DNA from: Myxococcales bacterium
GTDB lineage: Bacteria; Myxococcota_A; Polyangia; Polyangiales; Houyiibacteriaceae
Assembly: GCA_012744445.1 (NCBI GenBank)
Contig: JAAYBZ010000072.1
Span: 1 to 39,365, forward strand
Direction: 5' to 3'
DNA: 39,365 bases
The notes below the pieces were generated by a model. That model was not told the DNA's origin, did not search any database, and was given only the letters and a program-made list of their open reading frames with translations. Of this stretch, positions 8,011 through 33,205 are shown piece after piece. Position 1 is the first letter of the stretch, and the number at the start of each line of letters is the position of its first letter. The translations under genes were made by a program, and so were the position numbers.

Positions 8011-9918
<1,908 letters not shown>

Positions 9919-12337: not shown

Positions 12338-13858
12338 ATGAAAGGCATCGTCCATCTCGTCGGCGCCGGCCCCGGCGATCCGGATCTCATCACCGTCAAG
12401 GCGCGGCGTCGCCTCGCCGAGGCCGACGTGGTCCTCTACGACGCGCTCGTCCACCCGGAGGCCCTCTCCGTCTGCCGCAAGGACGCGGAGCTCGTCTTCG
12501 TGGGCAAGCGCGCCGGCCGCGAGAGCGCCCGACAAGCGGCCATCCACGAGCTCATGCTCGAGCACGCCTCGGCCGGCAAGCGCGTCGTCCGCCTCAAGGG
12601 CGGAGATCCCTACCTCTTCGGGCGCGGCTCCGAGGAGGCCGAATTCCTCGCCGAGCACGGCATCCCCTTCGAGGTCGTGCCCGGCGTGCCCTCCCCGCTC
12701 GCGGCCACGGCGTACGCCGGCATCAGCCTCACGCACCGGACGCGCTCGTCGTCGGTGGCGTACGTCACCGCGACCGAGTCCGAGGAGAAGGATCGCACGA
12801 GCCACGACTGGCCCAAGCTGGCCACGGCCACGCAGACGCTCGTGATCTTCATGGGCGTGCGCAAGCTCGAGACGCTCATGCGCATCCTCGCCGAGAACGG
12901 CCGCGATCCGTCCACGCCCGTGGCCGTCATCCAGTGGGCCTCGCTCCCCAAGCAGCGCACGGTCATCGGCACCGTGGCCGACATCGCCGAGAAGGCCAAG
13001 GCCGCCGGCGTGGGCATGCCCGCGCTCACCATCGTGGGCGACGTCGTCTCGCTCCGCGAACAGCTCCGGTGGTACGACGCGCGCCCGCTCTTCGGCAAGC
13101 GGGTGCTCGTGCCGCGCACGGCCGAGGGGAGCGAGCGCCTCGTCCGCCTCCTCCGTGATCGGGGTGCCGAGGCCGTCGTCGCGCCCTCGCTCCGCATCGT
13201 GCCGCCCGAGGATCCCGAAGCGCTCGCGGAGGCCGCCGCCAAGGCGAGCACCTACGACCTCGTGCTCTTCACCAGCGGGAACACCGTGGACGCCTTCTTC
13301 GCGGCCCTCGCCTCGCGCGGCAAGGACGCGCGGGCGCTCGGTACGGCCGAGGTGGCGGCCGTCGGCCCCAAGACCGCCGAGGCGCTCGCCAAGTACGGGG
13401 TCCGCGCCGACCTCGTGGCCAAGAGCACCCGCGCCGAGGGGCTCCTCGAGGAGCTCCGCCGCCGGCACGCGGATCTCGCGAAGAAGCGCGTGCTCTTCCC
13501 GCGCGCCGAGTCCGCCCGTCCCGTCCTCCTCGAGGGGCTCCGAGCCGACGGCGCCGAGGTCGATCTCGTGGTGGCCTACCGCGCGCTCCCGCCCAACGAC
13601 GAGGGCCGGCGCGAGATCCAGGCAGCCGTCGACGAAGGCGTCGACGCCGTGCTCGTCTCGAGCGGCGCCACCTTCGACCACCTCGTCGACGCGCTCCGCG
13701 ATCCGGCGTGCCTGCGCGCGGCCAAGCTCGTCTCCATCGGCCCCGTGACCACCGACGCCATCCAGAAGCACGGCTTCGAGGTCGCCGCCGAGGCCTCCGA
13801 GAGCACGCTCGAGGCGCTGGTCGACGCCCTCGAGGCGTCCTACGAAGGGGGATCGTGA
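12338..13858 (+). CDS. cobA-hemD: Fused uroporphyrinogen-III C-methyltransferase / uroporphyrinogen-III synthase
   Basis: 506 residues. Residues ~1-245 are the SUMT domain: GAGPGDPDLITVKARRRL at the start, LKGGDPYLFGRG, and VPGVPSPLAATAYAGISLTH. They methylate uroporphyrinogen III twice with SAM to precorrin-2 (siroheme/cobalamin branch). Residues ~255-506 are the HemD domain, which cyclises hydroxymethylbilane to uroporphyrinogen III (KRVLVPRTAEGSERLVRLLRD; VLFTSGNTVDAFF; SIGPVTTDAI). Such fusions are known in other bacteria. HemC is not in this window. The stop overlaps the ATG of the following lipoprotein gene (TGATG), so translation is coupled, which is unusual company for a tetrapyrrole enzyme. 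Confidence 0.93.
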   Translation: MKGIVHLVGAGPGDPDLITVKARRRLAEADVVLYDALVHPEALSVCRKDAELVFVGKRAGRESARQAAIHELMLEHASAGKRVVRLKGGDPYLFGRGSEEAEFLAEHGIPFEVVPGVPSPLAATAYAGISLTHRTRSSSVAYVTATESEEKDRTSHDWPKLATATQTLVIFMGVRKLETLMRILAENGRDPSTPVAVIQWASLPKQRTVIGTVADIAEKAKAAGVGMPALTIVGDVVSLREQLRWYDARPLFGKRVLVPRTAEGSERLVRLLRDRGAEAVVAPSLRIVPPEDPEALAEAAAKASTYDLVLFTSGNTVDAFFAALASRGKDARALGTAEVAAVGPKTAEALAKYGVRADLVAKSTRAEGLLEELRRRHADLAKKRVLFPRAESARPVLLEGLRADGAEVDLVVAYRALPPNDEGRREIQAAVDEGVDAVLVSSGATFDHLVDALRDPACLRAAKLVSIGPVTTDAIQKHGFEVAAEASESTLEALVDALEASYEGGS

Positions 13859-14729: not shown

Positions 14730-15059
14730 ATGCCCAGGGAACCCGACAGCGGGACGGGAACCGTCGTCAAAGAGAGAGCCCGTCAGAAGCCGAAGAAGCC
14801 GCCGCTCTACCGCGTTCTGATGCACAACGACGACTACACCACGCGGGATTTCGTGGTGTACGTCCTCGAGACGGTGTTTCACCACGACGAAGCCTCCGCC
14901 GTGCGCATCATGCTCCACGTTCACCACAATGGCGTGGGGGTCGCGGGTGTGTTCACGCGCGAGGTCGCCGAGACCAAGATCCACATCGTCGAGCAGCTCG
15001 CTGCGCGGGAGGAGTTCCCCCTCCTCTTGACGATGGAGCCCACCGAGGACGAGGAATAG
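14730..15059 (+). CDS. clpS: ATP-dependent Clp protease adaptor ClpS
   Basis: 109 residues, similar to E. coli ClpS (106). It binds proteins with destabilising N-terminal residues (Leu, Phe, Tyr, Trp) and passes them to ClpA. The N-terminal extension is basic, then the conserved core follows: NDDYTT at 33-38 (pocket residues Asn33 and Asp34-35), LHVHHNGVG with His65 matching E. coli His66, and the ClpA-contact face GVFTREVAETK. At the position of E. coli Met40, the gate residue that excludes beta-branched residues, this protein has Arg39 (NDDYTTRDF against NDDYTPMEF). clpA starts 6 bases after the stop and aat overlaps clpA, giving a complete substrate-tagging, recognition and unfolding set. 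Confidence 0.95.
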   Translation: MPREPDSGTGTVVKERARQKPKKPPLYRVLMHNDDYTTRDFVVYVLETVFHHDEASAVRIMLHVHHNGVGVAGVFTREVAETKIHIVEQLAAREEFPLLLTMEPTEDEE

Positions 15060-15065
15060 TTCGAC

Positions 15066-17333
15066 ATGCCCGGACCGATGATCGCCAAGGAGCTCCAGAT
15101 GACGCTGCGCCGCGCGTTCGAAGACGCAGGCGCGGCCCGCTACGAGCTCGTCACGCTCGAACACCTCCTCCTCGCGCTCCTCGACGATCCCACGGCCAAG
15201 GCGGCGCTCGAGCACGTGGGCGCCAACCTCGGGCGGATGCGCGAGGCCCTCACCGAGCACATCGAGGCGCACGCGCCCCGCGTCCCCGGCGCACATCACT
15301 ACGAGCCGCAGCAGACGCTCGCGGTCGAGCGCGTCCTCCAGCGCGCCGCGTTCCACGCCATCTCGTCGGAGATGGACACCATCGACGGCGCGAACGTCCT
15401 CATCCAGCTCCTCAAGGAGGAGGACTCCTTCGCGGTCTACGTCCTCGCGTCCGAGGGCGTCGAGGCCTTCGCGCTCAAGCGATACGTCTCGCACGGCCGC
15501 AACACGGGCCTGCAGAAGCGCGGCCGCGAGAGCGGCGAAGAGGCCGACGCCGAGGCACCCTCGCCCGACGGAGACCCCCTCGAGGCCTTCTGCACCGACC
15601 TCAACGCGGAGGCCGCGGCCGGGCGCATCGATCCGCTCGTCGGCCGCGACCACGAGATCGAGCGCACCATCCAGGTCCTCTGTCGGCGCCGCAAGAACAA
15701 CCCGGTGCTCGTCGGCGAGCCCGGCGTGGGCAAGACGGCCATCGCCGAAGGCCTCGCCATGCGCATCCACGAGGGCAAGGTCCCCGAGGTACTCCAGAAC
15801 GCGCGCATCTTCGCGCTCGACCTGGGCGGCCTCCTCGCGGGCACCAAATACCGCGGCGAATTCGAAGAGCGGCTCAAGGGCGTGCTCAAGCGCCTCGAGG
15901 AGATCGACGGCTCGATCCTCTTCATCGACGAGCTCCACATGATCGTCGGCGCGGGCGCCACCACGGGCTCCACGATGGACGCCTCCAACATCCTCAAGCC
16001 CGCGCTCTCCTCCGGGAAGCTCCGGTGCATCGGCTCCACCACCTACGCCGACTTCAAGCACCTCGAGCGCGATCGCGCGCTCGCCCGGCGCTTCCAGAAG
16101 ATCGACGTCCCCGAGCCGAGCGTCGAGGACACCATCAAGATCCTCGAAGGGCTTCGCCCGAAGTACGAGGAGCACCACGGCGTCCAATACGAAGACGGCG
16201 CGCTCGAGGCCGCCGCCAAGCTCTCGTCCAAGCACATCGTCGAGCGCTTCCTCCCCGACAAGGCCATCGACGTCATCGACGAGGCGGGCTCCTACGACCG
16301 CATGAAGCCGGAGAGCGAGCGCAAGCGCGTCGTCTCCACCACCGACATCGAGGCGGTCGTGAGCAAGATGGCGCGCGTGCCCATCGAGTCGGTCTCGGCC
16401 TCCGAGCGGGATCGGCTCCGCGACCTCGAGCCCGAACTCAAGAAGGTCATCTACGGGCAGGACGAGGCCATCGAGGCGCTCAGCTCGGCCATCACGCTCT
16501 CGCGCGCCGGCCTGCGCGCGCCCGACAAGCCCATCGGCTCCTTCCTCTTCGCCGGCCCCACCGGCGTCGGCAAGACCGAGCTCGCGCGACAGCTCGCGCG
16601 CATCATGGGCGTCGAGCTCATCCGCTTCGACATGAGCGAGTACAGCGAGCGTCACTCGGTCTCGCGGCTCATCGGCGCGCCGCCCGGCTACGTGGGCTTC
16701 GATCAGGGCGGGATGCTCACCGACGCCGTCCGCAAGCACCCGCACAGCGTCGTGCTCCTCGACGAGATCGAGAAGGCGCACCCCGATCTCTTCAACATCC
16801 TCCTCCAGGTGATGGACCACGCGAAGCTCACCGACAACACCGGTCGGGAGGCCGACTTCCGCAACGTGATCCTCATCCTCTCCACCAACGCCGGTGCGTT
16901 CGAGGCGCAGGAGAAGGTGGTGGGCTTCGGCAAGAGCGGACAGGCCGACGTCAAGACGATGGAGAGCCGGTCCAAGGCGGCCATCGAGCGCACCTTCCCG
17001 CCCGAATTCCGCAACCGACTCGACGCCATCGTGCAGTTCTCCGGGCTCTCGCCCGAGATCATCCTCCAGGTCGTCGACAAGGAGATCCGTCTCCTCGCCG
17101 AGATGCTCGCCGAGAAGGACGTCGTGCTCGAGGTCAGCGACGCCGCGCGCCGCTGGCTCGCGGAGCACGGCTACGACGCTCGCATGGGCGCGCGTCCCAT
17201 GGCCCGGCTCGTCGAGCGCGAGCTCAAACGGCCCATCGCCAAGGCGATGGTCTTCGGTGAGCTCTCCGAGGGTGGTGGACGCGCCCTCGTCGACGTGAAC
17301 GACGACGGGTTGGTCCTCCGCTACGAACGATGA
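15066..17333 (+). CDS. clpA: ATP-dependent Clp protease ATP-binding subunit ClpA
   Basis: 755 residues, matching E. coli ClpA (758). The N-domain (about 1-150) is the ClpS docking site. AAA+ module 1 has Walker A GEPGVGKT at 217-224 and an acidic Walker B (SILFIDELHMIVGAG). Module 2 has Walker A GPTGVGKT at 497-504 and VVLLDEIEKAHPD. The loop after TNAGAFEAQEKVVGFGKSG carries VGF where E. coli ClpA has the IGL ClpP-binding loop, so ClpP docking is expected. No long coiled-coil middle domain is present, which separates it from ClpB. A ClpP partner lies outside the window. The ATG of aat overlaps this stop. Confidence 0.95.
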   Translation: MPGPMIAKELQMTLRRAFEDAGAARYELVTLEHLLLALLDDPTAKAALEHVGANLGRMREALTEHIEAHAPRVPGAHHYEPQQTLAVERVLQRAAFHAISSEMDTIDGANVLIQLLKEEDSFAVYVLASEGVEAFALKRYVSHGRNTGLQKRGRESGEEADAEAPSPDGDPLEAFCTDLNAEAAAGRIDPLVGRDHEIERTIQVLCRRRKNNPVLVGEPGVGKTAIAEGLAMRIHEGKVPEVLQNARIFALDLGGLLAGTKYRGEFEERLKGVLKRLEEIDGSILFIDELHMIVGAGATTGSTMDASNILKPALSSGKLRCIGSTTYADFKHLERDRALARRFQKIDVPEPSVEDTIKILEGLRPKYEEHHGVQYEDGALEAAAKLSSKHIVERFLPDKAIDVIDEAGSYDRMKPESERKRVVSTTDIEAVVSKMARVPIESVSASERDRLRDLEPELKKVIYGQDEAIEALSSAITLSRAGLRAPDKPIGSFLFAGPTGVGKTELARQLARIMGVELIRFDMSEYSERHSVSRLIGAPPGYVGFDQGGMLTDAVRKHPHSVVLLDEIEKAHPDLFNILLQVMDHAKLTDNTGREADFRNVILILSTNAGAFEAQEKVVGFGKSGQADVKTMESRSKAAIERTFPPEFRNRLDAIVQFSGLSPEIILQVVDKEIRLLAEMLAEKDVVLEVSDAARRWLAEHGYDARMGARPMARLVERELKRPIAKAMVFGELSEGGGRALVDVNDDGLVLRYER

Positions 17334-18073
17334 GCCTCCCTTCGAGAATCGACCGTGGGCGATTGGCCTTCCCGCCGCCGGAGACCGCCGGCCCGGAAGG
17401 GATCGTCGCCTTCGGCGGCGACGCCTCGCCGGAGCGTCTCCTCCTCGCCTACGGCCAGGGCATCTTCCCCTGGCCGCACGAGGGCTATCCGCTCCTCTGG
17501 TTCTCGCCCGATCCGCGCTTCGTCCTCGAGCTCACGAGCTTCACCATCCCGCGCTCGCTCCGGAAGACGATCCGGAAGGGCCGCTACGAGATCCGCTTCG
17601 ACACGCGCTTTGCGGACGTGATGCGCGCGTGCAGCCGGGTCCCGCGCCCCGGCCAGCGCGGCACGTGGATCACCGAAGAGCTCATCGCGGGCTTCACCGC
17701 GCTCCACGAGACGGGCTTCGCGCACAGCATCGAGGCCTACGAGGGCGACGAGCTGGTCGGCGGGCTCTACGGGATGAGCCTCGGCAAGGCCTTCTTCGGC
17801 GAGAGCATGTTCGCCCTCCGCCCCGACGCCTCCAAGGTCGCCTTCTCCACGCTCGTGGCGCACCTCTCGCGCTGGGGCTTCCACTTCGTCGACTGCCAGG
17901 TCTACACCGACCACCTCGCGCGCTTCGGCGCCGTCGAAGAGCCGCGCAGGCGCTTCCTCGCGCGGCTCCGGCACGCGCTCGAGCAGCCCACGCGCGTCGG
18001 CCCGTGGAGGCGCACGCTGAGCCCCGACGAGGTGCTCGACGAGATCGCGCGCCTCGAAGGCCGCGACGGCTGA
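17330..18073 (+). CDS. aat: Leucyl/phenylalanyl-tRNA-protein transferase
   Basis: 247 residues (E. coli Aat is 234). It transfers Leu or Phe from aminoacyl-tRNA to the N-terminal Arg or Lys of proteins, creating N-degrons for ClpS/ClpA. Family signatures visible: GIVAFGGDASPERLLLAYGQGIFPWPHE, WFSPDPRFVLEL, GTWITEELIAGFTALHE, GFAHSIEAYEGDELVGGLYG, GKAFFGESMF and FHFVDCQVYTDHLARFGAVE. The start overlaps clpA (ATGA), so the unit clpS-clpA-aat is translationally linked. Its product and recogniser are thus made together. The usual C-terminal region is intact. Confidence 0.96.
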   Translation: MSLPSRIDRGRLAFPPPETAGPEGIVAFGGDASPERLLLAYGQGIFPWPHEGYPLLWFSPDPRFVLELTSFTIPRSLRKTIRKGRYEIRFDTRFADVMRACSRVPRPGQRGTWITEELIAGFTALHETGFAHSIEAYEGDELVGGLYGMSLGKAFFGESMFALRPDASKVAFSTLVAHLSRWGFHFVDCQVYTDHLARFGAVEEPRRRFLARLRHALEQPTRVGPWRRTLSPDEVLDEIARLEGRDG

Positions 18074-30811: not shown

Positions 30812-33205
30812 ATGGCGGTGACCCCCGCGCCGCGAGAGAATCGGTTCGAGTTCCAAGGCGCGCTCGTCGGCCTCCTCGCGCTCCTCCTCGTCTTCGTCCC
30901 CGTCATCCCCAGAGGCGAGACGCCCATCGCGGAGGAGATCCCTCCCACCGAGGGGATGCACACGCCCTCGAGCGAGCCGGCGCCGGCGCCCGACCTCGAC
31001 GGCCCCGAGGCGCCTTCGGCGGCCCTCTCCGGCCTCGTCCGCCTGCCGGGCGGCGCGCCCGCGAGCGGCGCGCGCGTCCGCGTCTTCGGAAGCGCGCTGC
31101 TCGGCTTCCTCGAGGTGGGCGCCGACGACGAGGGACGCTTCGCCTTCCCGGCCCTCCCGCCCGGCTTCTACGAGCTGCACGCCTTCCGTGGCGCGCACGT
31201 GGCGCACGCGGCGCGCGGCATCCAGGTGAAGGCCGGAGAGAGCACCGAGATCACGCTCGACCTCGTCCCCGGCGTCTCGATCCGCGGGCGCGTGGTGAGC
31301 GCACGCACAGGCGAAGGACTCCGCGGCGCCGAGGTCCGGGTGAGCGGCGAGCTCCTCGACGTCGCCGCGCGCGTCGTCGAGACGACGGCCGACGGCACCT
31401 TCGTGATCGACGGGCTCACGCCGGGGGAGAAGATCCTCCGCGTGCACAAGGAGGGCTTCGTGCACGACGGACCGCTCCAGGTCATGCCCGGCGGGGACGA
31501 GCTCCTCATCCGCCTCGGCACCGAAGCGCGCCTCCGCATCGAGGTCGTCGATCCGCGCGGCCGCCCCGTGACCGACGCCGAGGCGCAGCTCCTCGTCGAA
31601 GGCTCCATCGACCGCGCCGCCACCCCCATCCCGGCGCCGCGCGATCGGCTCCTCGTGGTCCCCGGCCCCGTCCCGCCGATCCCCGCGGCGGCGGGCGCCG
31701 TCCCCGACGCGCGAAAGTCGATCCTCGCGAGCGCCTCGAGCGACGAGCGCGGCCTCGTCGAGATGGACGGCCTCGCCGCGGCCACCGTGCGCGTGCGGCT
31801 CTCGGCCGACGGAAGGCCCACGGTCATCGGCGAGCCCATCGAGCTCCGCCCGGGCCAGACGCGCGAGGCGCGCATGACGCTCCCCTACGGCGGGAGGCTC
31901 TCGGTGCGCGTCTTCGACTCGGTCGGCGTGCGCGCGGAGGACGCCGATCTCGCCGTCCACCTCGAGGGCGATCCCATCGGCGCCTACGCCCGCACCGACG
32001 AGAACGGCGAGGCCGAGTTCTCCGGGCTGCTCGGCGCGCTCACCGTCCGCGCATCGCGCGGCGCGACGCCCCCGGTGGTCCAGCGCGTCTCCGTCGGCGA
32101 AGGCGAGCACCACACCCTCACCCTCACGCTCACCGAAGCGCGCGACGCCCTCTTCGGCCGCGTGGTGGACGCGCGTGGCTTCGGCATCGCCGGCGCGACG
32201 CTCGAGCTCACCACGCTCTCCAAACGTTCGCCCTTCGAGGCCGCGCGCCGCTCCGAGCCCGACGGCACCTTCCGCTTCGAAGACCTCCCGGCCCCACCCT
32301 ACCGCGTCGTCGTGCGGCATCCGGCCTACGCGGAGAGCGAGCCGATCCGCGTCGACGCGCGCGGCGAGCCCCTCAACGTCACGCTCGATCCCGGCGGCGC
32401 GATCGTCTTCGAGCTGCGCGACCGGCGGACGCTCGGCCCCGTCCCCGCCGAGGTCACGCTCGTCCGCGGCGATCGGCACATCGTCCGCCGCGCGTGGCCC
32501 GACGGCCGCGTCGAGATCGACCACGTCCCCCTCGGGCGATGGACGCTCCGCGTGGACGATCCGCGCTACGTGCCCTTCGAGCAGCCGGTGGAGCTCGCGC
32601 GCGACGGCGCTCGGCCTCCGCGCGTCGATCTCGGCCGCATCGATCTCTTCCAGGGCGCGACGGTCTCGGGCGAGCTCGTGGACTCGTTGGGCGAGCCCAT
32701 CTACGGCGCCAGGATCGTCGCTGGCGACGGCGCGCACGCGGAGGTGAAGACCGACGAAGGCGGGCGGTTCACCGTCACGCGGCTCGCGCCGGGACGCCTC
32801 CGCGTCGCGGCCCTCCTCGACTCGGGCGAGCGCGTGGAGAGCGCCATCTTCTCCTTGCGTGAGGGCGAGGTGCGCGAGGGGCTCCGCCTGGTCGCGCGCT
32901 CGCGCGGAGAGGCCGTCGACGTGGCGCCGGCCTCCCCCAGCGCCCGCGTGGGCATCGCCGCGACGGTCGTCGATCGCGACGGCGGCGTCGTCGTCGACTG
33001 GGTCGCGCCCGGCTCCAAGGCGCAGAAGAAGGGCCTCCGCCCCGGCGATCGCGTCCTCGCCGTCGACGGCGCCTCCGTGCTCATCGCGGCCCAGGTGCGG
33101 CCGCTGCTCCGCGCCTCCGCCGGCGAGCGCCGCACGCTCCGCATCGCCCGCGGCGCGCGCACGCTCGAGCTCGTGATCGAGCCCGAGCCGTTCACGCCGC
33201 CCTGA
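30812..33205 (+). CDS. Carboxypeptidase-regulatory-like repeat protein with C-terminal PDZ domain
   Basis: 797 residues. One N-terminal hydrophobic segment (~16-35) would act as a signal anchor. Then come about six Ig-like carboxypeptidase-regulatory repeats, recognisable by GxVxxxxGxPxxGAxVxV and DGxFxFxxLxPGxYxLxA patterns (for example LSGLVRLPGGAPASGARVRV; FGRVVDARGFGIAGATLEL; SGELVDSLGEPIYGARI). A PDZ-like domain closes the protein (ARVGIAATVVDRDGGVVVDW; GSKAQKKGLRPGDRVLAVDG). There is no protease catalytic triad. It is likely an extracytoplasmic scaffold or adhesion protein. It is divergent from the rluA-type gene and convergent with the MBL-fold gene; the two stop codons sit inside one TGAGCCGGCTCA palindrome. 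Confidence 0.8.
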   Translation: MAVTPAPRENRFEFQGALVGLLALLLVFVPVIPRGETPIAEEIPPTEGMHTPSSEPAPAPDLDGPEAPSAALSGLVRLPGGAPASGARVRVFGSALLGFLEVGADDEGRFAFPALPPGFYELHAFRGAHVAHAARGIQVKAGESTEITLDLVPGVSIRGRVVSARTGEGLRGAEVRVSGELLDVAARVVETTADGTFVIDGLTPGEKILRVHKEGFVHDGPLQVMPGGDELLIRLGTEARLRIEVVDPRGRPVTDAEAQLLVEGSIDRAATPIPAPRDRLLVVPGPVPPIPAAAGAVPDARKSILASASSDERGLVEMDGLAAATVRVRLSADGRPTVIGEPIELRPGQTREARMTLPYGGRLSVRVFDSVGVRAEDADLAVHLEGDPIGAYARTDENGEAEFSGLLGALTVRASRGATPPVVQRVSVGEGEHHTLTLTLTEARDALFGRVVDARGFGIAGATLELTTLSKRSPFEAARRSEPDGTFRFEDLPAPPYRVVVRHPAYAESEPIRVDARGEPLNVTLDPGGAIVFELRDRRTLGPVPAEVTLVRGDRHIVRRAWPDGRVEIDHVPLGRWTLRVDDPRYVPFEQPVELARDGARPPRVDLGRIDLFQGATVSGELVDSLGEPIYGARIVAGDGAHAEVKTDEGGRFTVTRLAPGRLRVAALLDSGERVESAIFSLREGEVREGLRLVARSRGEAVDVAPASPSARVGIAATVVDRDGGVVVDWVAPGSKAQKKGLRPGDRVLAVDGASVLIAAQVRPLLRASAGERRTLRIARGARTLELVIEPEPFTPP

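Follow-up and report, generated by a model that had tools for sequence, protein, structure and literature searches.

An Arg-gated ClpS adaptor encoded in a clpS-clpA-aat operon of a Myxococcales bacterium, with a gate residue conserved in its family

The solved ClpS structure closest to the protein described here is that of Caulobacter crescentus (3dnj, 3gq1; 60% identity, 0.9 Å). It shares with our protein the binding residues, a Val at the position of E. coli Val65 and ClpA as the partner; however, its gate is Met53, and it carries TP where our protein carries TT. E. coli ClpS (1mbu, 2wa8, 3o2h) is likewise similar in fold, pocket residues, ClpA partner, the clpS-clpA gene pair and the presence of Aat in the genome, but it is gated by Met40, is 45-46% identical, and has Leu32-Val33 where our protein has Met31-His32. 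In both of these proteins, specificity was widened to beta-branched residues by shortening the gate (M40A or M53A), and to our knowledge only short gates have been reported to admit such residues.

An Arg gate is present in two other ClpS proteins of solved structure. One is ClpS2 of Agrobacterium tumefaciens (AtuClpS2; 4yjm, 4yjx, 4yka), the additional, second ClpS copy of its genome, which reads NDDYTPREF in its PDB sequence; the other is the chloroplast ClpS1 of Arabidopsis thaliana (AtClpS1; 7d34), which reads NDNFNKREY. Both resemble our protein at the gate but differ from it in having Ala at the position of E. coli Val65. In addition, AtuClpS2 has TP rather than TT (42-43% identity), and AtClpS1 has an NDNFNK motif, works with ClpC and ClpF, and is 34% identical. 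The title of Stein et al. (2016) ascribes a “more stringent specificity” to AtuClpS2. Selectivity of AtClpS1 is controlled by a basic gatekeeper together with hydrophobic pocket residues; in one study it bound Phe and Trp, and Leu weakly, while in another it bound Phe, Tyr, Leu and Trp, and Ile was not bound (PMC7966870). As cited in that paper, Colombo et al. (2018) held the Arg gate itself responsible for the affinity differences of AtClpS1, while its weaker contacts with Leu have been attributed to the Val-to-Ala change at the Val65 position (PMC11371169). The residues that follow the N-terminus also matter: acidic residues at P2 to P5 weaken binding to E. coli ClpS, for which D36 and E41 at the rim have been blamed (PMC12258705).

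The window (the whole stretch of 39,365 nucleotides from a Myxococcales bacterium that was analysed) carries the following features of interest:

14730..15059, + strand: clpS, 109 aa, predicted Arg-gated N-degron adaptor (PF02617, AlphaFold, Foldseek)
14826..14834, + strand: codons of Asn33-Asp34-Asp35, predicted binding-site residues (from the sequence; invariant in a 47-sequence alignment)
14844..14846, + strand: CGG codon of Arg39, the gate, equivalent to E. coli Met40 (from the sequence and alignment)
14919..14924, + strand: codons of Val64-His65, equivalent to E. coli Val65-His66 (from the sequence and alignment)
15066..17333, + strand: clpA, 755 aa (TIGR02639 ClpA, 1033 bits, cut-off 993)
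17330..18073, + strand: aat, leucyl/phenylalanyl-tRNA-protein transferase, 247 aa (PF03588, E=5.9e-71; TIGR00667, 183 bits, cut-off 144)

Positions 14730-15059 translate into exactly one ORF of 109 aa containing NDDYTTRDF. Its product matched the PF02617 ClpS profile of Pfam (E=3.9e-31; 107 bits against a cut-off of 23), and NCBIfam ClpS models matched it under their cut-offs (114 bits at best). In a gap-free alignment with the E. coli and Caulobacter proteins, Arg39 falls on Met40 and Met53, respectively, and N33, D34-D35 and H65 fall on N34, D35-D36 and H66 of E. coli ClpS; all four residues that bind the alpha-amino group are present. Among the compared ClpS sequences, N33, D34 and H65 were found in 100% and D35 in at least 98%. 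An earlier note on this DNA, made from the letters alone, had read the motif, the Arg at the Met40 position and the retained Asn33, Asp pair and His65 in the same way, and translation and alignment bear it out. It had also contrasted NDDYTTRDF with NDDYTPMEF. The Arg is indeed notable, but the second Thr overstates the difference, being usual in the nearest relatives: among 167 distinct ClpS sequences, TT rather than TP precedes the gate in 67% of the M-gated and 98% of the R-gated ones.

Modelling of the protein gave a confident ClpS fold. In an AlphaFold model built with 47 homologues, the core had pLDDT values above 90 from about residue 21; the N-terminal 20 residues were modelled with low confidence, which fits the known flexibility of the N-terminal extension of ClpS. 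The top Foldseek match was Caulobacter ClpS (TM 0.96 on target length, 0.9 Å), with structures of its M53A variant also among the PDB matches, and AtuClpS2 and AtClpS1 ranked behind it.

The clpS gene is the first of a compact clpS-clpA-aat operon, in which only 6 bases separate the clpS stop from the clpA start and the aat ATG overlaps the clpA stop (ATGA). A partner for ClpS is encoded directly downstream, by a gene whose product scores above the TIGR02639 cut-off. The source genome has one ClpS and one Aat, and a separate contig carries one gene of the Bpt/ATE_C family (G000:C119:9063-9422), the product of which matched NCBIfam NF002346, a family labelled arginyltransferase, with 280 bits. 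Aat yields mostly N-terminal Leu, and the characterised Bpt of Vibrio transfers Leu to Asp and Glu (PMC3692480). Judged from these profile matches, the tagging enzyme, the adaptor and the unfoldase of the pathway are all encoded in this genome. The operon, the strong conservation and the confident model together make it very likely that this ClpS is functional, as the earlier note had supposed when calling it probably active.

The Arg gate is not peculiar to one genome. It was found in all 24 genomes of the source family from which the locus was fetched, encoded by all six Arg codons (CGG in 8, AGG in 5, CGC in 4, CGA in 3, CGT in 2 and AGA in 2). As the median identity of the ClpS core among these family members is 72%, the use of six codons at an invariant gate indicates purifying selection on arginine, and a sequencing error, drift or an oddity of a single genome can be dismissed. 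The gate is one of 35 invariant columns among the 79 of the core.

Beyond the family, 379 Myxococcota genomes were surveyed, of which 278 had a readable ClpS motif, and aligning the pocket across the phylum, another proposal of the note, showed that Arg recurs: it was the gate in 51 of the 278, belonging to 35 genera. In the 167 distinct sequences, which come from the phylum and its neighbours and are enriched for relatives of our protein, the gate was M in 81, R in 63, Q in 12, K in 5, F in 4, H in 1 and C in 1. Met was thus replaced almost always by long side chains, and a gate of Ala, Gly or a beta-branched residue (Val, Ile, Thr) occurred in none of these 167 sequences. Mapped on a tree of 103 ClpA proteins, changes between M and non-M gates number at least 10 and those between Arg and non-Arg at least 9; both counts are approximate because the tree came from a quick search and has several weak forks. 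The earlier note had reasoned that the residue would not matter if long gates were common among ClpS proteins of conventional specificity; the first part largely holds, as Arg or other long chains are frequent in Myxococcota ClpS. From the sequences compared, the Arg gate is a variant already known from plant and Agrobacterium ClpS, conserved in this family and repeatedly evolved.

What separates our protein from the AtuClpS2/AtClpS1 type is the pocket floor: Arg is present at the Met40 position, but Val64 takes the place of the Ala at the Val65 position. Val or Ile occupies this position in 98% of the distinct R-gated relatives, and among the compared ClpS proteins Ala was found only in AtuClpS2, AtClpS1 and the second ClpS (L187) of one Myxococcota genome, G061, which is the R-gated exception. 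G061 has two ClpS genes, L187 (G061:C59) and L188 (G061:C95), one M-gated and one R-gated, each adjoining a clpA-like gene; the R-gated L187 has TPREF together with Ala, the combination of Agrobacterium ClpS2.

Most likely (we would put the probability at about 0.6), the protein is a working ClpS for Phe, Trp, Tyr and Leu in a ClpAP N-degron pathway, in which the Arg gate provides a modest tuning. Asn33, Asp35 and His65 would bind the free alpha-amino group of the substrate; the pocket would take a bulky hydrophobic first side chain, namely Phe, Trp or Tyr and, in all likelihood, Leu; and the substrate would then be passed to the product of the adjoining clpA. Arg39, being long and flexible, would replace the rim Met and still shut the rim against beta-branched residues, while modestly affecting the affinity for Leu or the preferred second residue. 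The affinity for Leu or the sensitivity to the next residues may be altered, and the exchange probably makes a fine adjustment to the choice of protein ends without giving access to targets of a new class. The interpretation of the earlier note is partly supported: its “different” set of residues may apply in this modest form. Sequence, fold, gene context, Arg conservation and repeated gate switching are established here; what the pocket prefers to bind and what Arg does to that preference are inferred.

The retention of Leu is suggested by the partner enzymes. By hand count, each of the 20 R/K-gated genomes of the class has Aat, as do 24 of the 25 M-gated ones, so loss of Aat in R-gated lineages can be discarded; as this enzyme conjugates largely Leu, R/K-gated ClpS proteins would be expected still to read it. 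A sole ClpS unable to do so would leave Aat and the Bpt-family enzyme without an outlet, an argument that assumes the usual amino-acid choice of both. Moreover, since our protein keeps Val at the Val65 position, the Val-to-Ala basis proposed for the weaker Leu contacts of AtClpS1 is missing.

ClpS and Aat were lost together in many genomes of the class, each being found in 107 of 144, in nearly identical sets; G396 and G379 have ClpS without Aat.

The Arg gate might instead make this ClpS prefer aromatic residues (Phe, Trp and Tyr, with weak Leu). Both solved Arg-gated proteins, with the gate checked in their PDB sequences, are the “stringent” ones, as Stein et al. (2016) put it for AtuClpS2 in their title and as the weak binding of Leu by AtClpS1 in one study suggests (PMC7966870). 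However, both also carry the Ala blamed for the reduced Leu contacts of AtClpS1 (PMC11371169), Leu was among the residues bound by AtClpS1 in the second study, and Aat, mostly a Leu donor, was kept in every R/K-gated genome checked. Our ClpS is also the only one of its genome, while AtuClpS2 is an extra copy. We therefore regard such a narrowing as rather unlikely. A broader or shifted specificity, in which Arg would admit beta-branched or other residues or would respond to the second residue (tolerating, for instance, an acidic P2 like that of the Leu-Asp/Glu ends which Bpt makes), appears improbable. A positive charge at the rim could matter, given the effect of acidic P2-P5 residues through D36 and E41 in E. 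coli (PMC12258705), and the many changes to R, K or Q suggest some selectable effect. Nevertheless, basic gates did not go with Bpt: by hand count, and with phylogeny as a confounder, a Bpt-family gene occurred in 6 of 20 R/K-gated genomes of the class versus 21 of 25 M-gated ones, rather the reverse of what a gate matched to Bpt-made Leu-Asp/Glu ends would give, and we rejected that match. The “broader” specificity offered by the earlier note also finds no support in the gate itself, as Arg is long, the known widening came from shortening, and we know of no long gate reported to admit beta-branched residues. Arg-gated ClpS proteins have been published as equal in specificity or as more restricted (PMC7966870; title of Stein et al. 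2016), so that what is known of them does not point to a widening.

At the other extreme, any long flexible rim residue (Met, Arg, Lys, Gln) might serve equally, its identity being irrelevant. The repeated switching on the ClpA tree and the variation of the gate within families f12, f15, f16 and f39 fit this notion, as does the finding that, among the columns listed and in 7 independent pairs (a comparison of low power), no column consistently tracked the gate as a compensating pocket change. On the other hand, purifying selection fixes Arg in all 24 members of the source family, with all six codons in use and in a core where no more than 35 of the 79 columns stay invariant, which argues that Arg and Met are not simply interchangeable there; near-neutrality thus strikes us as very improbable. 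Modest tuning of a conventional ClpS is the reading we prefer, and a more far-reaching version of it is speculative and, in our judgement, unlikely: bacteria of the Polyangia type might repeatedly have evolved an Arg-, Lys- or Gln-gated sole ClpS with a canonical pocket (Val65 kept) and a shifted N-degron code, differing for instance in how Leu or the second-residue charge is read; the effects of gate and pocket floor, confounded in the two known Arg-gated proteins, would then be separated in nature.

If the Arg gate does tune the bacterial N-end rule, this lineage offers a clean natural test, since Arg sits on an otherwise canonical ClpS, each genome has a single copy, and the operon includes the gene of the tagging enzyme; if it does not, several long gates, Met40 among them, would be equivalent. 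Arg-gated ClpS2 is already the basis of N-terminal amino-acid binders for protein sequencing (PMC12874005), and variants combining Arg with Val65 could serve as scaffolds for such binders.

Several other observations were made. Family f46 (L138-L141, L189, L190) has a Phe gate throughout, together with Thr at the position of E. coli Met62; by alignment, Phe is likewise the gate of the Plasmodium ClpS (4o2x), for which binding of Ile as well has been reported. In G026:C17, G108:C24, G353:C561, G384:C184 and G474:C572, a second, weaker ClpS domain lies inside an ORF of 250-500 codons, and these are possibly ClpS-domain fusions or paralogues. Elsewhere in the window, a single ORF (12338-13858) that lies upstream of the clpS operon fuses a tetrapyrrole methylase with HemD (uroporphyrinogen-III synthase), an OmpA-type protein with a sub-threshold match to the outer membrane exchange protein TraB is encoded at 8011-9918, and the product of 30812-33205, 797 aa long, has five carboxypeptidase-regulatory-like repeats as well as a PDZ domain at its C-terminus.
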